Source: Rhizobiaceae bacterium
GTDB lineage: Bacteria; Pseudomonadota; Alphaproteobacteria; Rhizobiales; Rhizobiaceae
Assembly (NCBI GenBank): GCA_029233925.1
Contig: JARGOX010000034.1
Span: 1-35,568 of the forward strand
Direction: 5' to 3'
DNA: 35,568 nt
The stretch's first letter is position 1, and each line of letters begins with the position of its first letter. Below are positions 1 to 12,356 of the stretch, piece by piece. The notes under the pieces were generated by a model, which did no database searches, was not told where the DNA came from, and saw only the letters and a program-made list of their open reading frames with translations. The position numbers and the translations under genes are program-made.

Positions 1-449
1 ATCACCGACCCAGACTTATCCTGGATGCGCAAGGTGGTGCAAATCGAGTGGTTACTTTCATCTCGGTAGGCAACGACCTTCTTTAGAAAAAGCGGAAGCT
101 TGCCATCCGGGACAAATACGGTGGCCAAAGTTCGGTCTGTTGTCTTTACGGCGCAAAGTTCAATTCCGCTTCTTGTAACATCAAGACTTTCAAACTTGAG
201 CTCAAATTGGGGCTCGCTTTCGAATGTCAAATAAATGCCACGCCCGTCATCAACTCCGAAAGCAAGTTGCTCCTCGGCTCTTTCCGACGATAAATTTGCG
301 AGTTGTTCAAGTTTAGCAACCAATTGTTCAGCATGGGCATGCCGGTTTCGTGGGGGTAAACTTAATCCTTCGCTAATAAATGTAGAAGGGCTTGTGAAGC
401 GTTCTGCTGGTGGCGCATCTGGAGCCATTAAATGAGGATGATGTGCCAT
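1..449 (-). CDS. Subtilisin-like serine protease, N-terminal part (IetS-like), truncated by window edge
   Basis: This ORF starts with ATG at 449, reads about 149 codons and runs off the left edge with no stop. It begins MAHHPHLMAPDAPPAERFTS and includes the stretches PPRNRHAHAEQLVAKLEQL, GRGIYLTFESEP and ATVFVPDGKLPLFLKK. That pattern I associate with the N-terminal domain of S8 (subtilase) proteins encoded next to a AAA ATPase, known as IetS of the IetAS anti-phage system. The catalytic Asp/His/Ser domain would lie outside the window, so protease activity cannot be confirmed here. It sits 22 bases downstream of the AAA ATPase gene on the same strand, so the two are almost certainly one operon. 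A weak AGG-type ribosome site lies about 10 bases before the start. Family assignment comes from remembered sequence pattern plus gene order, not from a search. Confidence 0.7.
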   Translation of the reverse strand, partial: MAHHPHLMAPDAPPAERFTSPSTFISEGLSLPPRNRHAHAEQLVAKLEQLANLSSERAEEQLAFGVDDGRGIYLTFESEPQFELKFESLDVTRSGIELCAVKTTDRTLATVFVPDGKLPLFLKKVVAYRDESNHSICTTLRIQDKSGSV

Positions 450-471
450 GCGCTTCGCCTAGATAATTTTC

Positions 472-1458
472 TTATGTTTTTATGTGAGAAAGCGCCAGTT
501 TACGATCCTCAATTGCACGCACCAAATCTGATTGTTTGATGTGCAATTGGTCATGAATTAGAGCGTATTTAATAGCCTCTTCACATGCACGCGCAATATC
601 CGCGTAGCTCAAACCCTCGGCAATTGAAGCTAGATTTGGCCAGGATATTCTTGATGCTTTCAGCCCTTTAAGTTTCGAGCGAAACGCCTCTACGACGCGT
701 TCACTATCTGGCAGTTCATACTGAATTATATCATCAAATCGACGGAACAAGGCCTGATCCAGACTGCCGGCGTGATTTGTGGCCGCTACTATTAAACTAT
801 CGGAATCATCCTGCTCAACCAATTGCAAAAAGCTATTTACTACTCTTCTAATCTCTCCGACATCGTTTCCGGTATCTCGCGCTGAACCAATACTATCAAA
901 CTCATCAAACAAGTAGACGCCTCGAGTTTGTACCAAGGTCTCAAATATTACGCGCAATTTTGCAGCCGTCTCTCCCATAAATTTCGTTATAAGTCCGTCG
1001 AGGCGAACCACAAATAAAGGCAATCCTAGCTCACCGGCCAAAGCGGAGGCAGTTAAAGTCTTTCCTGTTCCTGGTAGACCTGAGAGCAAGATTTTTCGTC
1101 TAGGGTTGAGTCCCTGCGCGCGGATTTTCTGCACAGCCAATTGCTCGCTCAAAATACGATCCAATTTCTCGCGAACAAATTTGGATAAGACCATGTCATT
1201 AAGACGCACGTTGGGATAGGAGACACTCAATAGTTCGGATGCCTCGCCTCGAGGGCGAGCCATCGGAATTGCGCCACGTGCCGTAATCCCGCGCTTGGAT
1301 TTCGCTTTATCAATCAGGGCGCGAATTTCTTCAGCAACCTTACCATGACCAAGCCGAGCCTCATGCGCGGCAATCTGCATCGCAATCGAATAAAAATGAG
1401 TATCATCCCCCTCAGAAAGGGACGATATTAAGGCCTTTACTTGATCTGCGCTTGGCAT
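472..1458 (-). CDS. AAA+ ATPase (IetA-like, partner of subtilase)
   Basis: This is a 328-residue single-domain AAA+ ATPase. Visible motifs are Walker A GLPGTGKT (127-134), Walker B YLFDEFD with D185/E186, sensor-1 N228 in AATN, an arginine-finger pair R239/R240 in LFRRFDD, and a sensor-2-type GLSYADIARAC helix near 263-273. The N-terminal ~80 residues are helical and not a domain I can name. Such short ATPases followed directly by a subtilase form the IetAS system, reported to defend against phage. The inferred role is ATP-dependent sensing or control of the downstream protease. A GAGGGA ribosome site precedes the ATG, a TACAAT -10-like box lies about 25 bases upstream and a 17-base palindrome lies just beyond it. 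All catalytic residues look intact. Other AAA functions, such as a general chaperone, cannot be excluded. Confidence 0.8.
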   Translation of the reverse strand: MPSADQVKALISSLSEGDDTHFYSIAMQIAAHEARLGHGKVAEEIRALIDKAKSKRGITARGAIPMARPRGEASELLSVSYPNVRLNDMVLSKFVREKLDRILSEQLAVQKIRAQGLNPRRKILLSGLPGTGKTLTASALAGELGLPLFVVRLDGLITKFMGETAAKLRVIFETLVQTRGVYLFDEFDSIGSARDTGNDVGEIRRVVNSFLQLVEQDDSDSLIVAATNHAGSLDQALFRRFDDIIQYELPDSERVVEAFRSKLKGLKASRISWPNLASIAEGLSYADIARACEEAIKYALIHDQLHIKQSDLVRAIEDRKLALSHIKT

Positions 1459-1831
1459 GCTCCCTCGTCTTTCTTTTCAGTATTGTACACCAAAACTAAC
1501 TAATAGTTAGTGAATTTTGATATAATTTCTTATGAGCCGCACTCAGTTTTACCGCGTGAGTTTTAGACTTGTGGTTATCTATTGATATGGCGACAGCAGC
1601 AAGATTGCGGCCCCTCTAAAGCCGCCCCCCCCACATGAGGCGACGATTTCTGGCAAATCCTTAACAGTAAGAGGCTTTAAGAGCCAGTGCGCCTTTATCC
1701 CAAAAAAAGTGCCATTTCAGCTCGATCGCTCGGGGGATGCAACGGGGGTGCGCAGCGGCCCCCTTGCCAAGTTTGCGGGTACTACCCCGCACATCTTGCA
1801 ATCTGCGTAAACTTCATGCTTGCTGGTTGGT
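1459..1831. other. Intergenic region between divergent island genes
   Basis: These 373 bases separate the minus-strand ATPase operon from the plus-strand unknown gene. Apart from the promoter/palindrome at its left end and a run of eight C residues (1625-1632), I see no gene, RNA or convincing promoter for the rightward gene. The right half is GC-rich and contains several C and G runs. Confidence 0.5.
1482..1511 (-). promoter_or_regulatory. Putative promoter and palindromic operator of the AAA ATPase/subtilase operon
   Basis: Reading the minus strand, a TACAAT box (1487-1482) lies 24 bases before the ATPase start codon. Immediately upstream is a perfect inverted repeat, ACTAACT-AAT-AGTTAGT (1495-1511 on the plus strand), placed where it would overlap the spacer and -35 region. 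No good -35 match is visible at standard spacing. This is compatible with a regulator-bound promoter, but regulation is inference. Confidence 0.4.
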
Positions 1832-2755
1832 ATGACATTTGTTCCATTTGATAATGCAGATAAGATTGTTGATGAATTCATTGCGATGCTAAAAAGTCGT
1901 GGCATTGACCCACTGATCCGCGGCCAAATCGAAGAAGAGTTCTTGACGCTAACAGAGCTCCTCCATATTTGGAAAAATCCAAGCAGTCTCAATGGTAGAG
2001 AGAAAGAGGTTCTCTGCACTGCTGCCGGGGTTCACGACTTCGCTGCTAAGGTTTTAGCAGCTGGTCAGTTGCCTGAGTTCGATAGTTTCCGTGATCATCT
2101 GGAATTAATTTCGAAAGGCACTCTTCAAACCAACATGTCCCAGATGTCAGCTGGCGCGCCGGATGATGCCGCCCGCAAGCTCGTTGAGCTATATGTTGCT
2201 TGCCTTGCGATACATTGCGGAGAGAATATAGCTCTGGATCACCCAGTAAACTCGAAGGGTGATAACCCAGATGTTTTGCTGGATTACGGCTCGAAACGTT
2301 GGGCGATTGCCATTAAGACCATTTCTACTACACAGGGACAGACAATCTTTGAGAACATCAAGAAGGCGGCGGACCAGATTGAACGGAGCAGTGCTAACCG
2401 AGGGCTGGTTCTGCTGAACGTGAAAAACAGCATCAACCACGAAAGACTGTGGCAGGAAAATTTCTCTTGCGTGAAAGAAGCAACTGACGCCTTACGAGTT
2501 GAAATCGAGGCGCTCATTAACGCTGCCGACCATAATCGACCGGATTCCGACTGGGAAGAGATTTTCTCTGGCGAGAAGACAGCATTGCCGGTTCTAATGA
2601 TGGGCCAAAGCGTTGTGTCTCTCCCCACACCAGCGTCTGAGAAAACGCCGACGCCCATAAAAATGATGGTGGCTTGCAGCTTTGATCGCGTAGCGGATAG
2701 CGACGGTTTGCAACTCGCAAACTGCCTATGTCACTCGATGCAGGTAATCTTATAA
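1832..2755 (+). CDS. Unknown island protein with PD-(D/E)XK nuclease-like pattern
   Basis: I do not recognise this 307-residue protein by name. The N-terminal ~110 residues are helical. The centre (about 115-215) has the order expected of a PD-(D/E)XK nuclease fold: a helix (DDAARKLVELYVACLAI), then GDNPDVLLDYG, a strand RWAIAIKT, a helix GQTIFENIKKAADQIE and a strand RGLVLLNVKN. The usual second acid (E-x-K) appears as A-I-K, so catalysis through the standard triad is doubtful. The C-terminal part has a DWEEIF stretch and a cysteine pair near the end. An upstream TTG at 1820 is in frame; I chose ATG 1832, though neither has a strong ribosome site. It is divergent from the IetAS-like pair, so membership in that system is only a possibility. 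No signal peptide or membrane segment is seen. Confidence 0.6.
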   Translation: MTFVPFDNADKIVDEFIAMLKSRGIDPLIRGQIEEEFLTLTELLHIWKNPSSLNGREKEVLCTAAGVHDFAAKVLAAGQLPEFDSFRDHLELISKGTLQTNMSQMSAGAPDDAARKLVELYVACLAIHCGENIALDHPVNSKGDNPDVLLDYGSKRWAIAIKTISTTQGQTIFENIKKAADQIERSSANRGLVLLNVKNSINHERLWQENFSCVKEATDALRVEIEALINAADHNRPDSDWEEIFSGEKTALPVLMMGQSVVSLPTPASEKTPTPIKMMVACSFDRVADSDGLQLANCLCHSMQVIL

Positions 2756-3186
2756 GGCGGGTAAAGCGAGCCTAGTCGTCCGCAAGCTGGGGGCGTTAAA
2801 TTAGTTTCAATCGAAACTTACGATTTGACCAATCCAAGAAAATATCATTAACTTTATATCAGGGCCTCATTGCCCTTGATTGAGCCGGGAAATTTTATCT
2901 CCCGAGCCAAGACGCTGGGGGAAGGCTACGCTTTCTACTCAGCCCGCGCTCGACACGTCGGAGAAATGACGGGGTCGACCTCCCCGAATAGAATATGGCC
3001 AAGCTGCCAGCCTGTAAGGTTGTGCGAAATTCAAGCCATATCTATCGGCCGCCTCTACCAAATCCTTGGAATAGGCGGGAGTGGATGAACAAAGTATAGG
3101 ACTTTATTCCTTGTTTGTTCTCTATTTGTTCTGTACTGTATTACTCAAGTAAATGCAGTCAGAACCAGAGAGGAAAGGACGCGGCG
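2756..3186. other. Non-coding stretch upstream of recombinase operon
   Basis: No credible gene is seen in these 431 bases. They contain two small inverted repeats: AGTTTC-AATC-GAAACT (2803-2818) and CGGGA...TCCCG with a 9-base loop (about 2886-2904). Near the right end are repeated TTTGTTCT elements, listed separately. The first inverted repeat lies about 50 bases after the preceding gene and has no T-tract, so it is not a convincing terminator. Confidence 0.5.
3087..3132 (+). repeat. Iterated TTTGTTCT elements before the recombinase operon (operator candidate)
   Basis: TTTGTTCT occurs at 3114-3121 and again at 3125-3132. They are 11 bases apart, about one helical turn, so the 11-mers TTTGTTCTCTA and TTTGTTCTGTA differ at one base. 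An inverted near-copy, GAACAAA, lies at 3087-3093. A possible promoter overlaps them: TTGTTC (3115-3120), 18 bases, TATTAC (3139-3144), upstream of the small ORF at 3187. The arrangement suits a protein-binding operator controlling the recombinase; this is inference. Confidence 0.45.
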
Positions 3187-3501
3187 ATGAATAACGACGA
3201 CAACTATAAACGCTCTAACTCCATCCCGGATGGTAATGGCAACTTCCAACCAGAGCTTGACCCGGAAAAGTACCGGAATGGGCTAAGCGAGCTAAACCTT
3301 ACGGAGGAACAAGAAAACGAGATGCTGGGGATTTTGTTTTCAATCATGAATTCCTTCGTGCAACTTGGCTTTGACGTCAAAAATTGTGGGCAGATTTTTG
3401 AAAGTTTCACACAAGCTGCCCAAAACGAATCTGACGGGTTAGAATCGTCTCATTCATCAAAACAGGAGAAGCCAACGCGGGGAGATCGACGTCATGAGTG
3501 A
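3187..3501 (+). CDS. Small acidic protein coupled to serine recombinase
   Basis: A 104-residue hydrophilic, acidic protein of unknown function. Its middle (about 33-75) is predicted helical by eye: LTEEQENEMLGILFSIMN followed by SFVQLGFDVKNCGQIFESF. The ends are polar and probably disordered. I chose ATG 3187 over an upstream in-frame TTG because a strong AGGAAAGGA ribosome site lies just before it. Its last eight bases overlap the recombinase start (3494-3501), so translation is coupled and the two act together or are co-regulated. I believe similar small ORFs precede recombinase genes in other alphaproteobacterial islands. A recombination directionality factor or a recombinase cofactor is plausible but unproven. 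It has no recognisable helix-turn-helix. Confidence 0.75.
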   Translation: MNNDDNYKRSNSIPDGNGNFQPELDPEKYRNGLSELNLTEEQENEMLGILFSIMNSFVQLGFDVKNCGQIFESFTQAAQNESDGLESSHSSKQEKPTRGDRRHE

Positions 3502-5056
3502 GTCACATCAAAATGAAGCGGTTATCTATTGCCGTGTTTCCAGCACCAAACAAACCAAGGTTGGTGATGGTTTAATGTCTCAAGAGACCCGTTGCCGCGA
3601 ATTTGCGCGCATGAAGGGCTATGAAGTCTTGGACGTGTTTAAGGATGATGTTTCTGGCAGTCTGATTGCTCGGCCAGGGATGAAGGCGATGCTCGCCTTC
3701 TCCAGCGCTCGAAAATCCAAAGACACGATCATACTCATTGATGATGTGTCGCGGCTCGCTCGCGACCTGCAAGCTCACTTGGATTTGCGCGCCGCTATAA
3801 CAAGCGCCGGGGCGCGCTTGGAATCTCCTTCAATCGAGTTCGGGGAAGATTCAGATTCCATCCTCGTTGAAAATCTTCTGGCCAGCGTGTCGCAGCATCA
3901 GCGGCAGAAAAATGGGGAGCAAACCAAAAACCGAATGAAGGCTCGAGTGCAGAACGGCTATTGGGTTTTTCAAGCCCCGGTCGGCTACAGATTTGAATCT
4001 GTGCGGGGTCGCGGGCGAATGCTCAAGCGCAACGAGCCTGTTGCATCGGTTGTGCAGGAGGCTTTGGAAGGTTACGCGAACGGGCGGTTTGAAACGCAAG
4101 CAGATGTCATGCGCTTTTTGCAGGACAATCCCCTCTTTCCTAAAGACAAACGTGGAGTCGTTCGTCATCAGCGCGTTTCTGTGCTCCTCAATCAAAGCGT
4201 CTATGCGGGATATGTGGTCGCAACCAAGTGGGGCGTTGATTTGCGAGAAGGTCAACACGAGCCTCTAATCTCAGCGCAAACCTATCAACGTATTCAGGAT
4301 CGTTTAAGCGGTGGTTTCTACGCGCCGCGCAAATCAAACCTCAATGAGGACTTCCCGCTTCGCGGCCATGTCGCCTGCGCCGATTGTAGCACGCCGCTGA
4401 CAGCGTGCTGGTCCAAAGGGTCGCATAGCCGTTACCCTTATTATCTTTGCCCAAAGCGTGGCTGTGATAGCTACGGCAAGTCAATCCGCCGCGACAAGAT
4501 AGAGGGCGAATTTAAAGCGCTGCTCTCTCGCGCAACGCCAACCGAAGCTTTGTTCGAGGTTGCCAAAGCAATGTTCAAAGACCTTTGGGATCATCGCATG
4601 GCGCAAGGCGAGGCCAATAAAAAATCTTTGGCGGCGCAACTTGTGAAGATCGACAACCAAGTGTCGCAATTTTTGGAGCGCATTCTTGATGCGTCAGTTC
4701 CGAGCGTGATCGGCGCATATGAAGAACGCATCCAAAGACTAGAAATGGAAAAACGCATTATCAAAGAAAAAGCCGCAGAATCAGGAAAACCGGCGAATGC
4801 TTTCGACGATGCACTTAGAACGGCGCTCGAATTTCTCTCAAACCCTTTGAATCTATGGGGTTCTGAGCGTTTGGAAGACCGTCACGCGGTCCTTAAACTG
4901 GCCTTTTGTGACCGTTTGGAATACTCACGCGAAAAAGGATTTAGAACGGCAAATTTTACTATGCCCTTCAAGGTCTTAGGTGGCTTTATGAGTGGTGAAA
5001 CAGTAATGGTGCGCTCGGAGAGATTCGAACTCCCGACCCCTAGATTCGTAGTCTAG
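3494..5056 (+). CDS. Large serine recombinase (island integrase)
   Basis: This 520-residue site-specific recombinase would integrate and excise the island. The N-terminal resolvase domain (about 8-150) has the nucleophile Ser16 in YCRVSSTKQ and the catalytic arginines R14, R87 and R90 (DDVSRLARD). A recombinase DNA-binding domain follows (about 160-275). A zinc ribbon then has Cys295, Cys298, Cys319 and Cys324, and a coiled-coil-like helix runs through about 370-430. All these elements appear intact. The start has a GGGGAG ribosome site and overlaps the preceding small ORF by eight bases. The final 16 residues (505-520, ending FELPTPRFVV) are encoded by the antisense strand of the tRNA-Arg gene, so the C terminus depends on the attachment site. 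Serine recombinases that use tRNA genes are less common than tyrosine integrases that do. Confidence 0.93.
   Translation: MSESHQNEAVIYCRVSSTKQTKVGDGLMSQETRCREFARMKGYEVLDVFKDDVSGSLIARPGMKAMLAFSSARKSKDTIILIDDVSRLARDLQAHLDLRAAITSAGARLESPSIEFGEDSDSILVENLLASVSQHQRQKNGEQTKNRMKARVQNGYWVFQAPVGYRFESVRGRGRMLKRNEPVASVVQEALEGYANGRFETQADVMRFLQDNPLFPKDKRGVVRHQRVSVLLNQSVYAGYVVATKWGVDLREGQHEPLISAQTYQRIQDRLSGGFYAPRKSNLNEDFPLRGHVACADCSTPLTACWSKGSHSRYPYYLCPKRGCDSYGKSIRRDKIEGEFKALLSRATPTEALFEVAKAMFKDLWDHRMAQGEANKKSLAAQLVKIDNQVSQFLERILDASVPSVIGAYEERIQRLEMEKRIIKEKAAESGKPANAFDDALRTALEFLSNPLNLWGSERLEDRHAVLKLAFCDRLEYSREKGFRTANFTMPFKVLGGFMSGETVMVRSERFELPTPRFVV
5007..5056. other. Presumed attachment-site region: tRNA 3' half overlapped by recombinase 3' end
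   Basis: The recombinase reading frame enters the 3' end of the convergent tRNA-Arg gene at 5007 and stops at 5056, next to the anticodon. The 3' half of a tRNA gene is the classical place for island attachment cores. The exact crossover dinucleotide cannot be fixed without the other island end or an empty site. Confidence 0.5.
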
Positions 5057-5083
5057 TGCTCTATCCAGCTGAGCTACGAGCGC
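5007..5083 (-). tRNA. tRNA-Arg (anticodon ACG)
   Basis: The minus strand folds into a complete cloverleaf. The acceptor stem is GCGCTCG/CGAGCGC with discriminator A, and an encoded CCA (5009-5007) follows it. The D arm is GCTC/GAGC. The anticodon stem CTAGA/TCTAG has loop CTACGAA, giving anticodon ACG. The variable loop has five bases, and the T arm GGGAG-TTCGAAT-CTCTC has one G-T pair. The ACG anticodon is normally deaminated to ICG and reads CGU, CGC and CGA. The gene is intact despite the adjacent island, so insertion restored its 3' end. No obvious terminator follows its 3' end, which lies inside the recombinase gene. Confidence 0.97.
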
Positions 5084-5439
5084 ATAACGGGAGGCGAAGC
5101 CTGCCGCGTGGCGGTAACTAATCCTTTCACCGCAGGAATGCAAGCGCAGTTGCACGAAAATTGTCGCTTTTCGAACAAAGTTTGCAAGAGCCGTTAAACG
5201 AGGTCGCTGATGCTTCGCGAAACAGCGGGCGTGGCTAAAGTCTGTCTTGTTTTCATTGAACCACTGTGTTCGTGATCCAGTGAGTCGCTCCGCCAGGAAG
5301 GCAGTAAAGAACGATGCTCTCGCATCGGTCGAGACGTCAGACAAAACGGGTGACGCAGCGGGCGGCCACTGGTCGCGAACCAACTTGATCTTGACCAAAA
5401 AACAACTGGCAGAGTGGTTCAATCAAAGCAAGACATGCT
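5084..5439. other. Intergenic region between tRNA-Arg and histidine kinase gene
   Basis: These 356 bases form the chromosomal side of the island junction. I see no gene. A minus-strand open frame crossing it runs straight into the tRNA and is an artefact. The part nearest the tRNA (5084-5150) should hold the tRNA promoter, but I find only weak matches to -35/-10 boxes. Confidence 0.5.
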
Positions 5440-7005
5440 CTATGCACCCGCCTGTTTGATCAGCACCGGTCTTTTGCCCGGCAGGCATTCGGCCATGGCG
5501 GGCTGGTTGGGCAGGGTGATGCGGAAACGCGTGCCCGAGCCCGGATTTTCCACAAGGGCGATGGTGCCGCCATGGGCGTGTACGAGCTCATGGGCGATGG
5601 CCAGGCCCAGGCCGGTGCCGCCGGAGCGTGCCGAACCGTGAAAGGCGGTGAACAGATGCTCCTTTGCCCGGGCGGGCATGCCGGGGCCCGTATCGTCAAT
5701 TTCGATGATGGCCGTGCCGTTGGTGAGCGCCGCCGAGACGGTGATGCGCTTGATCACCGCCAGGTCGTCGTCTTCATCTGCCGACAGCGCCTGCACAGCG
5801 TTGCGGCACAGATTGTGCACCACCCGGAAGATCTGCTCGCTGTCGACATCCAGTTCCAGGCCCTGCGGAATATCGATGACGAAATCGATCTGTCCTTTCT
5901 GGGATAGACTGGACTGCGCAAAATTGCCTGGCCCTGCATCGCTTTCGGGCAGGAAATCGGCATCGACGATCAGGATATCGCGCACATCGGCCACCAGCGA
6001 AGCAAAATCCACCCGCCGGCGGTTCGGTTCGGCTTCCCGCGCCCGGCCATAGGCAAGAACCTCGCCGGTGTAGGACACGGCGCGATCCATGGTGCGCAGG
6101 AGTTTGGGGCCGAAACGTTTGACCACAGGGTCATCCACCATGGAAAGCCTGTCGGACAGAAGCTGGGCCGAGGCCAGAATATTGCGCATGTCGTGATTGA
6201 TCTTGGAAACCGCCAGACCGAGATTGGCGAGGCGCTGCTGCTCTTTCAGGGTTTTCTGCAACTCCTGCTGCATCGATTCCAGATGCCGCTCGGCCAGCCC
6301 CAGTTCGTCGGCGACCTGGCGTGGCCTGATAATGCGCTCTGGATTGTCGGGCTCGCGTGAAAAGGCCTGCATGTTAACCGTCATGCGGCGGATCGGGCGG
6401 ATCATCAGGGTGTTGATGGCCACAAAGACCAGCCCTGCGGTGAAGAATGAAATGATCAGCGACAGAAGGAAGACATTGCGGCCATAGATCAACATGGCTT
6501 CACGCAGCGGCGCCTCGTCCATGACGATATCGATGACCATGTCGCTGTCACTGACCGGCCCGTAGACCCGGATCATCCTGCCATGGGAAAACAGGGTGAC
6601 AAAGGCGTCACCAATGGCAGCAAGCGGCGAAACGGATGTCAGATCATATTGCTGATCGACCTTTGCCGGCATGTCGGACTGGGCAATCAGTCGCGACATG
6701 CCATCGGTCTTGAGCGCAATGGATTTGGTGCCGGTGGCCATCAGCGCATCTTCCTGGATGGGCCGGGGAAGCTCCATGTCCTCCCAACCCTCGACCACCA
6801 GACTGGCGGCTGCTGCCGTGCGCAGGCGATCCTCCAGCCAGCGTATGCGTGTATTGGCGACGGAGGGCACGAAAATCAGCACCTCTGCCAGCATGACGAA
6901 CAGAACCGTCAGCAGCAGAAGCTTGGCCGACAGGCTGCGCCACAGACTTTCTTTACTGCCCCTGCGGGCATTGTCGTGTTTGCCGTGTTTTTGCGCCGTC
7001 ACCAT
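5440..7005 (-). CDS. Sensor histidine kinase, membrane-bound, orphan
   Basis: A 521-residue inner-membrane histidine kinase. Transmembrane segments at about 27-48 and 176-197 enclose a periplasmic sensor region of about 125 residues that I cannot assign. A HAMP-like linker follows (from about IRPIRRM), then a dimerisation/phosphoacceptor helix with His271 in KINHDMRN, an N box (HNLCRNAVQA), G1 DTGPGMP and G2 GTGLGLAIAHEL. All ATP-binding motifs are intact. I chose ATG 7005, which has AGGG six bases upstream, over the in-frame TTG at 7023. No response regulator is adjacent, so its partner is elsewhere. It is the last gene of a probable operon with the flavoprotein and TVP38 gene upstream, which hints at redox or envelope sensing. 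The signal is unknown. Confidence 0.92.
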   Translation of the reverse strand: MVTAQKHGKHDNARRGSKESLWRSLSAKLLLLTVLFVMLAEVLIFVPSVANTRIRWLEDRLRTAAAASLVVEGWEDMELPRPIQEDALMATGTKSIALKTDGMSRLIAQSDMPAKVDQQYDLTSVSPLAAIGDAFVTLFSHGRMIRVYGPVSDSDMVIDIVMDEAPLREAMLIYGRNVFLLSLIISFFTAGLVFVAINTLMIRPIRRMTVNMQAFSREPDNPERIIRPRQVADELGLAERHLESMQQELQKTLKEQQRLANLGLAVSKINHDMRNILASAQLLSDRLSMVDDPVVKRFGPKLLRTMDRAVSYTGEVLAYGRAREAEPNRRRVDFASLVADVRDILIVDADFLPESDAGPGNFAQSSLSQKGQIDFVIDIPQGLELDVDSEQIFRVVHNLCRNAVQALSADEDDDLAVIKRITVSAALTNGTAIIEIDDTGPGMPARAKEHLFTAFHGSARSGGTGLGLAIAHELVHAHGGTIALVENPGSGTRFRITLPNQPAMAECLPGKRPVLIKQAGA

Positions 7006-7068
7006 AGTCTGCCCTATCCGCAATCATGCCGATTGCCGCCGCCTTCGTTGATGAAAGCTGCACCCAGC

Positions 7069-8496
7069 CTATCCAAAGCGGCGCAGAAAACCAATCAGCT
7101 TGCGCACAAACGGCTTGCGCGTCATCGGCCCATAATAGGAGATGACAGCGCGCTTTCCAATCTCGGACATGGTCGGGTATGGCGGCACATAGCCACGCAC
7201 ATCGGAAAGCTTCATGCCGTTGGTGATGGCCAGCGCCCACATATTGATCATCTCGCCGGCACCGGCGCCGACAATGGAGACACCCAGTATTTTGCCTTTG
7301 GCGCTGGTGACCAGCTTGATCAGCCCATCCGTCTTGCGTTCGGCCCGCGCCCGGTCATTTTCCGCATAGGGCCAGCGCAAGACATGAATATTGCCATGTT
7401 TCTTGCGGGCCTCCTCCTCGCTGAGCCCCACGTGGGAAAGCTCCGGGTCGGTAAAGGTGACCCAGGGGATGATGCCGGGCTTATCCTTTGCCGGCAGGCG
7501 AAACAGGATCTGCTGCACCACCAGCCCGGCGTGGTAACCGGCCACATGGGTAAATTGCAGGCCGCCCGCGACATCGCCTATGGCATAGACCCGCTTGTTC
7601 GATGTTCGCAGATTGGCCCCGACCTTGATGCCCTTGCGGTCATGGTCGATGCCCGCTTCGCTGAGCCCCAGGCCTTCAACATTGGCGGCACGGCCCGTTG
7701 CCACCAGAATATCCGAACCATCCACGATGGTTTCAATTTCGCCGGTTTTGACAAGAACACGCACGCCTGTCTTGCCGCGTTTCCTGACCTCGGTAACCGT
7801 TGCTCCCTCGAGGATCTCGACGCCTTCGGCGCGAATGCGGTCGAGCACGATGGCCGTCAGTTCAGGGTCATCCTTGCCCAGGGCCTTGAAACCCTCGATC
7901 ACGGTAACCTGCGCGCCAAGGCGGCGATGCGCCTGCGCCATTTCCATGCCGATGGGGCCGCCGCCAACGATAATCAGGTGCCGCGTTGCCCGGGTTCTGT
8001 CAAACAGCGTCTCATTGGTCAGGTAGTCCACCTGATCAAGACCTGGTATCGGCGGCACAAAGGCCGAGGAACCGGTTGCCACGACGAAGCGCCGGGCCTT
8101 GATTTCATAGTCGCCTGCGACGACGGTTTCAGCATCGACAAAGGCCGCGGAAGCCTCGATGACCTTGACGCCCATGGCGCTATAACGTTCCACTGAATCA
8201 CTGGGTGCGATGTCAGCAATGACCGCATGCACATGGGCATGGACTTTCTTGAAGTCGATCTTGATGTCACCGCTGGTGACACCGAAATGCGGTGCCTCGG
8301 TTATGGCATGGACATGTTTGCCGGCGGCAATCATCGCCTTGGAGGGAACACAGCCGTAATTGAGGCAGTCACCGCCCATCTTGCCCTTTTCAATCAACAC
8401 GACATCAACACCAAAGGCAGCGGCAGCGGCAGCGACGCTCAGGCCACCGGACCCGGCACCAATAATACAAATATCCGGACGAAGCGTTTCGGTCAT
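7069..8496 (-). CDS. Mercuric-reductase-like FAD/NAD(P) disulfide oxidoreductase
   Basis: A 475-residue class I pyridine nucleotide-disulfide oxidoreductase. The FAD-binding GAGSGG is at 13-18. The redox-active cysteines C44 and C49 lie in GGDCLNYGCVPSKA. An NAD(P)-binding GGGPIG follows, then a second FAD motif YAIGDVAG, and a dimerisation domain ending in PPYPTMSEIGKRA. The catalytic His of lipoamide dehydrogenases (HPT.SE) is replaced by Tyr here. The protein also lacks the N-terminal metal-binding domain and the C-terminal Cys-Cys pair of true MerA, so mercury reduction is unlikely and its substrate is unknown. An AGGAAA ribosome site precedes ATG 8496. The TVP38 gene lies 65 bases upstream and the kinase 63 bases downstream, all on one strand. 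In my recollection such flavoproteins often neighbour, or are fused to, TVP38 proteins. Confidence 0.9.
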   Translation of the reverse strand: MTETLRPDICIIGAGSGGLSVAAAAAAFGVDVVLIEKGKMGGDCLNYGCVPSKAMIAAGKHVHAITEAPHFGVTSGDIKIDFKKVHAHVHAVIADIAPSDSVERYSAMGVKVIEASAAFVDAETVVAGDYEIKARRFVVATGSSAFVPPIPGLDQVDYLTNETLFDRTRATRHLIIVGGGPIGMEMAQAHRRLGAQVTVIEGFKALGKDDPELTAIVLDRIRAEGVEILEGATVTEVRKRGKTGVRVLVKTGEIETIVDGSDILVATGRAANVEGLGLSEAGIDHDRKGIKVGANLRTSNKRVYAIGDVAGGLQFTHVAGYHAGLVVQQILFRLPAKDKPGIIPWVTFTDPELSHVGLSEEEARKKHGNIHVLRWPYAENDRARAERKTDGLIKLVTSAKGKILGVSIVGAGAGEMINMWALAITNGMKLSDVRGYVPPYPTMSEIGKRAVISYYGPMTRKPFVRKLIGFLRRFG

Positions 8497-8561
8497 GGTG
8501 TTTCCTGATGTATTTTTCTGAACAAGTCCTGGGGCCGTTTGATGCGGATCATAGGGGAAAA

Positions 8562-9341
8562 TCAGCCCTGCCGACCAGCGCTAATCTTGCGCACCACGAA
8601 GGCAAGCGCTGCAACAGCGGCCATGGCGGCAAAGGCAATGGTGAGCTCCGTGGTGACAATATCACTCAGCGACAGGTCGCGCCCGGCCTGGGCGGCCGAA
8701 AGGATGACGCTGTCGAGGCCCTGCCCCAGATAGGCATAGGCATAGGTGCCGGGCAGGATGCCGAGAAAAGTGGCGAGCACATAGGTGCGCAGCGGAACAT
8801 TGAAGAATGCCGGTGCGATATTGATGACAAAAAACGGAAAGATCGGCGCCAGACGCAAAACCAGCAAAAAGCCGAATGCATTGTCCCTGAAACTGTCAGC
8901 CAATTTGCCGACACCCGGCCCGGCGCGGCGCTTGAGAAAGTCACCCATCGCGGTGCGCGCCGCCAGAAAGATGATCGAAGCACCGATTGTCGCGGCAAAT
9001 GCGGTCAAAGTGCCTGCGACAAACCAGCCCAGCAGAAAGCCGCCGAAGATCGTCAGCAGGGAGGCTGCGGGGAAGGAAAAGGCGACAGCGATCACATAGA
9101 TCAGCGTGTAGGTCACGCAGGCGGCAAGCCAATTGTCCGCGACATAGGCCTTGAGGGCATCGCGGTGCTCGACCAGTGCCTCAAGGGTCAGATAGTGATG
9201 CAGGCCGAACAGGTAGCCGGCGACAAGACCGGCCAGAATGATCAGGATCGGCAGAAACCGGCGCAAGGCTCCGCCCCGACCTGCTGCAACAGGTGCATTG
9301 TGGGCCGTTGCATCGGCCGTCTTGTCTTTTGTCGTCGTCAT
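8562..9341 (-). CDS. TVP38/TMEM64 (VTT-domain) membrane protein
   Basis: A 259-residue integral membrane protein. A short polar N terminus (about 1-28) is followed by a first membrane helix (LPILIILAGLVAGYLFG). The VTT/SNARE-associated core has re-entrant-like FGGFLLGWFVAGTL and the conserved arginine-proline LRLAPIFPFF, and there is a final helix near the C terminus. DedA/TVP38 proteins belong to a superfamily implicated in lipid scrambling and envelope homeostasis; the substrate of this one is unknown. The AGGAGC ribosome site is strong. It is the first gene of the operon with the flavoprotein and the histidine kinase, so these functions may be linked. No promoter could be pinned with confidence upstream. 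Confidence 0.9.
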   Translation of the reverse strand: MTTTKDKTADATAHNAPVAAGRGGALRRFLPILIILAGLVAGYLFGLHHYLTLEALVEHRDALKAYVADNWLAACVTYTLIYVIAVAFSFPAASLLTIFGGFLLGWFVAGTLTAFAATIGASIIFLAARTAMGDFLKRRAGPGVGKLADSFRDNAFGFLLVLRLAPIFPFFVINIAPAFFNVPLRTYVLATFLGILPGTYAYAYLGQGLDSVILSAAQAGRDLSLSDIVTTELTIAFAAMAAVAALAFVVRKISAGRQG

Positions 9342-9948
9342 GTCGTGCTCCTGATACAGCGCATCTGTGGCCTTTGCAAAACTGCCGTATCGCAGCCCGG
9401 TCCGCTCAGACTAAGCATTTGCGCGCGCCCTTGCCCAATGAATTCGGCGCCGTGATACGGATCCTATACGTGAATGAAATCGTGTTGCTTCTCACAGTCC
9501 CGTGCGTTTTCCCGGGCACCATTTCCTCAAACAGGCGTTGATCAATTTCCCTTGTTGCGTCCCAAAGCTTCATCACCAGTCCTGCCTCTGTCAGCGGGAC
9601 CAATATGATTTTGTGCTCGGGTGGCGACACCCCTTCAAATCGTATAGAAGCGGCCACAAGACAATGGATGCATGGCCGGTCTCACCGTCATGTGACTGAA
9701 GGTGATCGGTTCTTGCCAGGCCCTTCGCTGACAGTGTGAGGCTGCAGAGCCGCGCAGACGTGCGCAAAAGCGGCATTTTGGATGCGATCAACATTTGACT
9801 TGGCGAGGCCATATGCGTATAAGCCGCGCACGTTCGGATTCAGCTGTCCGGCGCTTGTTTTTTTGCGCCCGAACACCCGACCGTCAATCGCAACGCTACT
9901 GTCTTGCGACAGTCCAAAGAAGGACCGCACACCGCGGTATTAAAATAA
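9342..9948. other. Intergenic region between the TVP38 operon and rpmH
   Basis: This 607-base divergent gap contains the rpmH promoter in its right part. In the left 450 bases I see short open frames on both strands, but none has a ribosome site plus recognisable protein, so I call none. The promoter of the leftward operon should also lie here but is not clear by eye. Confidence 0.5.
9795..9823 (+). promoter_or_regulatory. Sigma70-type promoter of rpmH-rnpA-yidC
   Basis: TTGACT (9795-9800), a 17-base spacer and TATAAG (9818-9823) form a near-consensus promoter. It lies about 125 bases before rpmH, the first gene of the cluster, and predicts a start near 9830 and a leader of about 120 bases. 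Confidence 0.75.
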
Positions 9949-10086
9949 ATGACAAAGCGTACCTATCAACCGTCCAAACTTGTGCGTAAACGCCGCCACG
10001 GCTTCCGCGCACGCCTTGCAACAACCGGTGGCCGCAAGGTCATTGCTGCGCGCCGTGCACGTGGACGCAAGCGTCTGTCGGCATAG
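9949..10086 (+). CDS. rpmH: 50S ribosomal protein L34
   Basis: A 45-residue, highly basic protein reading [20 protein letters not shown] and ending GRKRLSA. It is the classic L34 of the large ribosomal subunit, which packs against 23S rRNA. The usual rhizobial L34 begins MKRTYQPS; this one has an extra Thr after Met. It precedes rnpA by 33 bases, the near-universal bacterial gene order, and shares the promoter at 9795. Confidence 0.98.
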
Positions 10087-10119
10087 GCCGGCTCCGTTTG
10101 TAATCACGAAGAAGGGCCT

Positions 10120-10521
10120 ATGCCACCAACCGGGCCATCGCCGCAGATCGAACGGCTTAAAAACCGTTCGCAATTTCTTGCCGTTCGCAAGGGCGAGCGG
10201 CGAAAGGGTCCTTTTTTTGTGCTCGATATTCTTGATCGAGGCGCCTCGGATGAGGCGCCTCGCATCGGCTATACAGTGACCAAGCGGCAGGGAAATGCCG
10301 TGGAACGAAACAGAATGAAAAGGCGCCTGCGCGAAGTCGTTCGCCTGACTGCAGGGTTTGATATGATGCCCGGCCATGATTATGTAATCGTTGCCCGGCG
10401 CGACACCCTGACTGCGCCCTTTGCAAAATTGACGAAATCCCTTGTGAGCCGGATCGGCCAGCAGCCCAGGGACAAACAAAGCCAGCGCCGCGCCGCAGAG
10501 CCAGATAACAGGACCGAATAA
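10120..10521 (+). CDS. rnpA: Ribonuclease P protein component
   Basis: A 133-residue basic protein that binds the catalytic RNA of RNase P and helps it remove 5' leaders from tRNA precursors. The start LKNRSQFLAV resembles the family N terminus. The RNR motif (VERNRMKRRLRE, about 62-72) is the conserved basic helix. The C-terminal ~20 residues are polar and variable. A GAAGG ribosome site precedes the ATG. The stop codon shares one base with the yidC start (TAATG at 10519-10523), so the two are translationally coupled. A yidD gene, often found between rnpA and yidC, is absent. Confidence 0.96.
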   Translation: MPPTGPSPQIERLKNRSQFLAVRKGERRKGPFFVLDILDRGASDEAPRIGYTVTKRQGNAVERNRMKRRLREVVRLTAGFDMMPGHDYVIVARRDTLTAPFAKLTKSLVSRIGQQPRDKQSQRRAAEPDNRTE

Positions 10522-12356
10522 TGCAACAGAACCGCAATTACTTCATTGCCATTGCCCTATCGGTGCTGATCCTGATTGCCTGGCAATTTCTGTATCTTGG
10601 CCCGAAAGTGGAGAGCGAACGCCTCGCCCAGGAAGCCTTGCAGGCGCAACAACTTGAACAGCAAGCCCAGCAGCAGGCCGCACAGGGCACTGCTTCAACC
10701 GGCAATGGCGATCTGCCGCAGTCCGGCGCGACAGTATCCGGCCTGCCCGGCGCTGCGCCCAGTGCTATCGCCAAAGACGGCGTCAGCCGCGACGCGTCGC
10801 TTGGCCAGTCGAAACGACTTGTGATCGATACGCCTGCGCTGACCGGAACAATCAATCTGACCGGCGCGCGTTTTGATGATCTGAAGCTGAAGGAATATCA
10901 CGAGACCGTCGACCCCAAGAGCCCGATCATCGAATTGCTTTCTCCGGCCTCCATGCAGGCTGGCTATTTTGCCGAATTCGGTTTTGCCGGCAATGAAGCC
11001 AGCGGCAAGGTGCCGGGGGCAGACACCGTCTGGAACGTTTCCGGTGACCCGAAACTGACCGAGGACACACCGATCGTCCTTTCCTGGACCAACGACAAGG
11101 GCCTGACTTTCGAGCGCACGATCAGCGTTGACGACAAGTTCATGTTCACCATCTCGGACGACGTCACCAACAATACGCAGGCGCCGGTATCGATTTCCCC
11201 CTATGGCCGCGTCACCCGTTTCAACAAGCCTGCCCTGACAGGCATCTATGTGCTGCATGAAGGCCTGCTTGGCGTCATCGGCGAAGATGGACTGCAGGAG
11301 ATCGACTACAGTGATGTCGAAGAAGACCGCACCATTACGCCGGCCAAAGCCGACAATGGCTGGATGGGCATCACCGACAAATATTGGGCAACGGCGCTCA
11401 TTCCTGCACAGCAGCAGCCCTACCAGGCGCGGTTTTCCTATTTTGATGACGGCCGGCCACGCTACCAGACCGATTTCCTCAGTGATGCCGTGACGATCCA
11501 GCCAGGCCAGGTCGAGACGATGGAAAAACATCTCTTTGCCGGCGCCAAGCAGGTGCCGATCATCAATGACTACCAGGACAGCTACAATATCGACCGTTTC
11601 GACCTGATGATCGACTGGGGCTGGTTCTATTTCATCACCAAGCCGATGTTTCACGTGCTTGACTTTTTCTACAGATTCTTCGGCAATTTCGGCGTCGCAA
11701 TCCTGACGACAACCGTTCTTTTGAAGCTGATCTTCTTCCCGCTGGCCAACAAGTCCTACCGCTCCATGGCCAACATGAAGAAGGTTCAGCCGAAAATGGA
11801 GGAAATCAAAGCCAAATTCGGCGATGACCGTCAGGCCCAGCAAAAGGCGATGATGGAGCTTTACAAGAAGGAAAAGATCAATCCGGTTGCCGGCTGTTGG
11901 CCGGTGCTGTTGCAGATCCCGGTCTTCTTTGCGCTCTACAAGGTTCTCTATGTGACCATTGAAATGCGCCATGCGCCGTTCTTTGGCTGGATCCAGGACC
12001 TTTCGGCGCCTGATCCGACCACCATATTCAACCTCTTTGGCCTCATTCCCTTCGATCCGCCATCTTTCCTGATGATTGGCGTATGGCCATTGCTGATGGG
12101 CATCACCATGTTCCTGCAGATGCGCATGAACCCGACACCGCCCGATCCGACGCAGGCGATGATTTTCACCTGGATGCCGGTTATCTTCACCTTCATGCTG
12201 GCCACTTTCCCGGCCGGTCTGGTGATCTACTGGGCATGGAACAACGCGCTTTCCATCGTTCAGCAGGGCGTGATCATGAAGCGCCAGGGCGTCAAGATCG
12301 AACTGTGGGACAATCTCATGGACCTTTTCAAGAAGAAACCCAAGGCGGCGGAATAG
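10521..12356 (+). CDS. yidC: Membrane protein insertase YidC
   Basis: A 611-residue Oxa1/YidC-family insertase that places membrane proteins in the inner membrane with, or independently of, SecYEG. An N-terminal membrane anchor (about 5-25) is followed by a low-complexity Gln/Ala-rich linker. A large periplasmic beta-domain follows (about 95-360). The five-helix insertase core is in the C-terminal third. It includes the cytoplasmic hairpin with [18 protein letters not shown] and the conserved groove region beginning near [20 protein letters not shown]. Length and layout fit Gram-negative YidC. It overlaps rnpA by one base and is followed closely by engB, so the four genes are probably co-transcribed. 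Confidence 0.97.

Follow-up and report, generated by a model that had tools for sequence, protein, structure and literature searches.

A putative decayed IetAS pair and a rare nuclease-like gene carried by a predicted integrative mobilizable element at tRNA-Arg

Introduction

In two reports, the IetAS pair of pTiC58 and of mycoplasmas is a toxin (IetS) with its antitoxin (IetA) (PMC5006074, PMC8562856), and in mycoplasma the deletion of the ATPase alone was lethal whereas that of the protease, or of both genes, was not (PMC8562856). Another paper counts the pair among anti-phage systems that replication proteins of phages set off (PMC10732053), and an IetAS-type pair named sgiAT is reported to help keep the mobilizable Salmonella Genomic Island 1 (SGI1) (PMC5006074). 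Here we analyze a locus of this kind at the start of a 35,568-nucleotide stretch (positions 1 to 35,568 of contig JARGOX010000034.1, assembly GCA_029233925.1, hereafter the window), which begins at the left tip of that contig, C37 in our numbering, in an assembly of 43 contigs and 6.1 Mb whose family is presumably Rhizobiaceae. The locus contains ietA, the beginning of ietS and, on the other side of ietA, an open reading frame (ORF) for a 307-residue protein that we call ORF3.

Like the pairs of pTiC58 and mycoplasma, the window has an AAA+ ATPase gene followed by an S8 protease gene; unlike them, its protease gene is interrupted after 131 codons, and the contig retains nothing of the catalytic domain. 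The likeness to sgiAT extends to residence on an integrative mobilizable element, and the difference is that SgiT was tested as a working toxin while the protease of the window is truncated (PMC5006074). The reading that we favour, and hold to be probable with appreciable room for doubt, is that the window carries two unrelated cargo items, namely an IetAS system broken in ietS and a separate, rare ORF3, whose product would most likely be a lone DNA nuclease. Thus ietA, ietS and ORF3 are probably not one machine, in keeping with the position of ORF3 in other genomes beside quite different phage-defence systems.

An intact ietA followed by an interrupted ietS

The ORF at 472-1458 is assigned to the IetA family: the PADLOC IetA models gave their best match to it at 4.4e-73, spanning residues 4-318, Pfam PF00004 (AAA) matched at 4.7e-28, and the 25 listed plasmid relatives share 53-61% identity with it; the NCBIfam model IteA scored 208.8 bits, under the 510-bit cut-off of that family. 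Its GLPGTGKT and LFDEFDS segments are presumably the Walker A and B motifs. ORF 3-449, on the minus strand, begins 22 bp beyond ietA, and residue stretches within its positions 5-135 match N-terminal parts of proteins from 264 plasmid records; of the 40 matches listed, 35 bear the annotation S8 peptidase or subtilisin-like. An ATP-binding protein gene stands directly before the S8 gene in 4/4 plasmid records opened, the N-terminal part of IetS is 36-40% identical to four plasmid IetS proteins according to the alignment summary, and 14 of 30 IetA loci taken with flanks of ~1.5 kb show IetS-like similarity. The layout read by a first-pass annotation of this DNA, an AAA ATPase and then a subtilase N terminus, is therefore borne out by the PADLOC match together with the S8-like N terminus 22 bp on.

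The continuation of the left-hand gene into a subtilase, which such a layout implied, did not hold. After 131 codons it runs into an insertion sequence and not into a catalytic domain, its open frame continuing into the insertion sequence as far as the contig end, and no S8 protease with a catalytic triad directly follows ietA in the window. We consider ietS interrupted because the IetS similarity stops where a 55-bp repeat, the end of the insertion sequence, begins. When full-length IetS (834 residues) was searched against the whole assembly, the sole match was C37:54-443, covering IetS residues 8-138, and the protease domain of ietS was not found.

Window positions 1-55 are identical to C30:220793-220847. 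This shared stretch has what we take to be the overlap length of the assembler, 23 contig-end pairs having exactly 55 bp in common (84 of the 86 tips compared, the other two read separately). One end of contig C3 (C3e) matches 20 of the first 25 bases of the 55-bp sequence as an imperfect inverted repeat, against 13 for the runner-up among the 79 tips compared, and an 8-bp direct repeat, CATTTTTC, lies directly outside the repeat on both C30 and C3. The C30 and C3 ends are one complete insertion-sequence copy with its target duplication, and another copy lies in ietS after codon 131; the 55 bp are taken as insertion sequence, and not as IetS sequence, because of this inverted partner and 8-bp target duplication at another site. 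From its GTAA ends and 8-bp duplication we assume that the element is of the IS66 family, an assignment that a literature search did not confirm.

The insertion sequence would have entered ietS after codon 131, cutting the protease before its catalytic domain and leaving IetA intact. Loss of the toxin with retention of the antitoxin may be a harmless decay route for an IetAS pair, and decay through the protease would be the expected direction given the deletion phenotypes in mycoplasma. The locus would then serve as an example of how a defence pair of toxin-antitoxin type decays by toxin loss on a mobile element.

It could be argued that ietS is intact in the cell and that its break is an artefact of the assembly, since the window starts at the tip of a contig and none of the 43 contigs is shorter than 5,313 bp. 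Against an artefact, the IetS similarity ends at the start of the repeat, and the inverted partner and target duplication of the repeat at another site mark it as a mobile element and not IetS sequence; we regard this explanation as very unlikely.

The other half of IetS was also sought elsewhere in the genome, where the sole PF00082 match is a 1290-residue frame on C18 that full-length IetS did not match, and this candidate was rejected as a different frame. The frame itself (L015, C18:23191-27072, ~1290 residues) has an S8 peptidase domain and, towards its C terminus, a part that contains HETSHALLDG and looks metalloprotease-like.

ORF3 and IetAS are not linked

ORF3 is divergent to ietA, as first annotated, and the two share an intergenic region of 373 bp. 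One proposal was that ORF3 could be an unrecognised third component of IetAS; cleavage of a regulator by IetS might, for example, release or activate it as a nuclease. The adjacency of the two genes speaks for this proposal in one genome, and the linkage counts speak against it. Among 394 genomes of the family, the IetA model at 1e-40 matched 64 and ORF3 was present in 2, the only overlap being the window's own genome (Fisher p = 0.30); both searches used 394 genomes, the same ones as far as listed, and AAA ATPases of other kinds may be among the 64, for the model also matches 6 of 14 control genomes, including four archaea. None of the 566 IetA-like plasmid records (1e-30; 72,556 records searched) carries ORF3, because the sole ORF3 plasmid, pRLN1, is without IetA. 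ORF3 was likewise absent within ~1.5 kb of IetA at all 30 IetA loci examined, the fetched loci of its four other relatives contain neither IetA nor IetS, and in genome G843 the IetA gene is on contig C11 and ORF3 on C26.

A recurrent ORF3-IetAS neighbourhood, as expected of a three-gene variant, was thus not found in these samples, and ietS itself is broken here. The tabulation of homologues that the first-pass annotation had suggested showed no association of ORF3 relatives with IetAS pairs; since the left-hand gene runs into an insertion sequence, both of the results named there as refuting were obtained. The three-gene module was rejected on the linkage counts. A role of ORF3 as third component appears extremely improbable to us, which removes an unsupported three-gene IetAS system from consideration.

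A small family found among differing defence systems

ORF3 is a real gene, with relatives at 29-47% identity over the aligned lengths. Five members were found: that of the window and those of the R. leguminosarum plasmid pRLN1 (43% identity to the window copy), genome G843 (45%), the prophage contig L057 (47% over 242 positions) and Xaviernesmea oryzae (29%), the L057 copy (9405-10403) having an in-frame stop after residue 256. Scans of overlapping genome samples detected ORF3 in the window's own genome and in G016, the genome of the X. oryzae copy and a member of the same family, both among 201 relatives and among the 394 family genomes; in the own genome and G843 among 385 genomes of the class; and in the own genome only among 398 of the phylum. 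A contig scan gave at least two loci, the search of plasmids (72,556 records) one match, pRLN1, that of phages none, and that of viral contigs none with the first alignment and one with later alignments. No family in PADLOC, Pfam, NCBIfam or PHROGs matched ORF3 at E 0.001 or better, the sub-threshold matches being BT_3535-like (0.21, Pfam) and phrog_17870 (0.038), and a PDB sequence search with a three-row ORF3 profile returned no match. ORF3 is a rare gene of alphaproteobacterial defence islands and a prophage; the few copies of its small family, which none of the four curated libraries recognised, are spread among differing defence systems.

The neighbours of these copies include, by PADLOC, HamB (1.5e-51), a fragment of DpdF (1.8e-101) and a methyltransferase of type II (1.3e-241) on pRLN1; Drt2 (7.6e-134), a CBASS cyclase (1e-194) and a 2TM effector (7.6e-106) in X. 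oryzae; and BilA, B, C and D (3.5e-54 to 1.5e-168), together with a UvrD-nuclease fusion, in G843. In the L057 prophage, ORF3 is flanked by capsid and tail genes and runs opposite to them. When all 48 other ORFs of the three non-phage loci (greedy ORF pick, the IetA of the window excluded) were scanned, 13 matched PADLOC at 1e-20 or better, compared with 1 of 30 control genes (SoFic; Fisher p = 0.006), a contrast that we consider support and not proof.

The alternative raised at first annotation, that ORF3 is a separate defence gene, is upheld as regards context, the three other non-phage copies being found among other defence genes, while a defence function is what this context would suggest. 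The best reading is that of a separate, uncatalogued defence-island gene, argued from context and fold. In the favoured account ORF3 would work alone, most likely as a DNA nuclease, and both the nuclease activity and the role in defence are put forward as predictions. A bolder version, which we offer tentatively and hold to be possible though not the likelier case, is that ORF3 is the founding member of a so far uncatalogued group of anti-phage nucleases, each encoded by a single gene and having a relocated active-site acid (E...PD...AxK...E/D), and that it is an add-on swapped freely among the unrelated IetAS, Hachiman-type, DRT2/CBASS and Bil systems and prophages; if so, it would be a shared second layer beside whichever primary defence system is present.

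ORF3 might instead serve the mobile elements themselves, in excision, transfer or maintenance, for instance as a junction-resolving or DNA-processing nuclease, and not in phage defence. Its distance of ~0.7 kb to the recombinase gene of the element described below, with only a 128-residue ORF between, its copies on a mobilizable element, an R. leguminosarum plasmid and a prophage, and the presence of Holliday junction resolvases among its weak fold matches would all fit such a role. Nevertheless, no single transfer or recombination gene recurs at the other loci (from ORF lists, part of which were searched against Pfam), the neighbours that do recur in kind are defence genes, and ORF3 is rare in the genomes sampled, so that we find a role in element mobility rather unlikely.

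Some further features of these loci were observed. In G843 (L020, 1574-7880) a 1119-residue fusion of peptidase M78, UvrD helicase and PD-(D/E)XK domains lies directly upstream of a complete BilABCD. On pRLN1 a gene in the HamA position beside HamB (L009, 14858-15772) had no PADLOC or Pfam match at 0.001 and may be a divergent or frameshifted HamA. The L057 contig also bears a transposase gene, which we take to be IS1380-like.

Predicted fold and active site of ORF3

The better of two structure models (predicted local distance difference test, pLDDT, 74.2; predicted template modelling score, pTM, 0.80; four-row alignment) has a helix at 112-127, strands at 131-135, 148-152 and 155-163, a helix at 169-184 and a strand at 190-196. 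This predicted alpha-beta-beta-beta-alpha-beta order is that of a PD-(D/E)XK core. By name, and with fold labels that we assumed for these entries, 40 of the 50 listed PDB fold matches are PD-(D/E)XK-fold proteins, PspGI ranking first as a weak match (E 0.02). Down to 25% pairwise identity, E119, P146-D147 and K162 are invariant in the five members. Each of the five has Ala at position 160, where (D/E)xK would have its canonical acid, and an acid at position 174, inside the predicted helix 169-184 (E, E, E, E and D). The PD-(D/E)XK-like order noticed at first annotation is thus present in altered form: PD and K are invariant in 5/5, and the canonical (D/E) is replaced by Ala in 5/5.

According to two papers, the acid of PspGI, NgoMIV and Cfr10I has moved off the (D/E)xK strand, giving PD...K...E; ORF3 resembles the CCGG-family enzymes (these three and Ecl18kI) in the PD...K...D/E order and also in that the helix before it bears an additional Glu (PMC551604, PMC6344858). 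The PD-(D/E)XK-type core of the model and the pattern conserved in 5/5 together suggest that ORF3 is a nuclease with a relocated acidic residue, E...PD...AxK...(E/D). In this arrangement the acid of (D/E)xK would be shifted to the next helix (E119...P146-D147...A160-x-K162...E/D174), and the C-terminal part may serve target or DNA recognition, the N-terminal region being predicted as helical. The spacing from K to E/D is 12 residues in ORF3 and 14 in NgoMIV. An R-(D/E)R recognition motif, with variants named, stands at the start of the conserved helix of CCGG-family enzymes (PMC6344858), and by eye it is absent from ORF3 residues 163-184; for this reason ORF3 was not placed in the CCGG restriction family. 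None of the five ORFs searched in window 3-5056 has a methyltransferase match in Pfam.

The Ala found at the canonical (D/E) position in every member would also suit a protein that keeps the PD-(D/E)XK fold without its catalysis and that binds DNA or another protein, as a sensor or an inhibitor might. However, E119, D147, K162 and the acid at 174 are kept in 5/5 across the divergence of the family, and the residue pattern is that described for the relocated-acid enzymes (PMC551604, PMC6344858). A dead fold seems improbable to us, to about the degree of the mobile-element role.

Several observations weigh against the combined reading of a broken IetAS beside an unrelated nuclease gene. With respect to ietS, no contig tip carries the far side of the insertion, and, the smallest contig in the assembly being 5.3 kb, the remainder of the gene may follow directly on a short contig that the assembly lacks, although the gene would be interrupted in that case too; neither a 55-bp blastn against plasmids nor a 31-bp exact scan of viral contigs named the insertion sequence, and its 55-bp pattern, with up to 3 mismatches, was found in 101 genomes in the own genome only. 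With respect to ORF3, the 30 control genes were picked by us from one genome, in regions flanking the element or close to the end of C30, neighbours within a locus are not independent, and five members, one of them with an in-frame stop, make for thin context statistics. As for the fold, the first model was poorer (pLDDT 57), both modelling alignments were shallow (3 and 4 rows), no PDB fold match reached E 0.001 with either model, and the only match past that value, a predicted viral protein annotated as restriction endonuclease (1.7e-4), came from the poorer model.

An integrative mobilizable element at tRNA-Arg

The region 5002-10978 of the window shares 95.2% identity with the close relative G002, in which the site is without the element, and the left flank of the integration site was located on C12. 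The other end of the element is C12:1-1724, which encodes a relaxase (PF03432, 3e-13) and a small protein that no Pfam family matched. Between its two ends the element falls into a gap of the assembly. The element therefore has an integrase, a relaxase and defined ends that are absent from G002. Because of the recombinase, the relaxase, the two ends and the site empty in G002, ietA, the ietS stub and ORF3 are, on sequence grounds, cargo of an integrative mobilizable element at tRNA-Arg, the mobility of which is predicted. SGI1 differs from it as an element, in its integrase and in its integration site. The locus thus comes down to an ordinary mobile element that carries a decayed IetAS and a rare nuclease-like gene, the latter of modest interest because its few copies accompany very different defence systems.

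Table 1. Features of the left part of the window (positions in the window).
Feature	Position	Strand	Description	Basis
Insertion sequence end	1..55	-	Terminal inverted repeat, reading GTAACCACTCGATTTGCACCACC... into the element	Common to C30 end
ietS 5' remnant	56..449	-	131 codons, N-terminal domain only, without subtilase catalytic domain	IetS similarity
ietA	472..1458	-	AAA+ ATPase, complete, 328 residues	PADLOC, Pfam, NCBIfam, plasmid relatives
Palindrome	1495..1511	.	17 bp, perfect, ACTAACTA-A-TAGTTAGT; upstream of ietA, between ietA and ORF3	One match, mean 0.01 in shuffles
ORF3	1832..2755	+	Helical N-terminal region, PD-(D/E)XK-like core ~112-196, C-terminal alpha/beta part; alternative start at 1820 gives 311 residues	Relatives, model
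128-residue ORF	3115..3501	+	Overlaps recombinase start	No family match (Pfam, PADLOC, NCBIfam, PHROGs)
Large serine recombinase	3494..5056	+	Taken as the integrase of the element	PF00239 5.9e-25; phrog_95 integrase 5e-60
Shared 10-bp core	5005..5014	.	AATGGTGCGC; right junction, at tRNA-Arg 3' end	Left copy near C12:1725
tRNA-Arg (anticodon acg)	5007..5083	-	Integration site	Break relative to G002

At window 5005-5056 the recombinase frame stops inside tRNA-Arg, beyond the shared 10-bp core, and its last residues would change on excision. The C12 tip is made of another repeat, with 51-54 bp in common with 13 other tips. These tips (C12:1-55, L076, and the 13 others) share the repeat end TGTAGAAGTTGACACTTGATCTGACA, and a second group of tips has TGTAGAAGACTCGACTTGATCTGACA; the two look like the ends of one multicopy insertion sequence, the source of many assembly breaks, one copy of which adjoins the relaxase of the element.

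Other observations

The palindrome between ietA and ORF3 was matched once, compared with a mean of 0.01 in shuffles, and is a candidate operator-like sequence. As a common ietA operator it was rejected, its 13-bp core being found only in window-derived loci among 76 loci compared.

A repeated intergenic sequence lies at window 5236-5440; a query containing it gave 61 matches in the own genome, 62 in G002 and 6 to 9 in the other six congeners, counts that include matches to the tRNA part of the query. Finally, C30 bears two genes with GDFTNSGNI-type repeats (L003, 2307-5867 and 10252-12636), very alike in their C-terminal parts, which we presume to be autotransporter-like.

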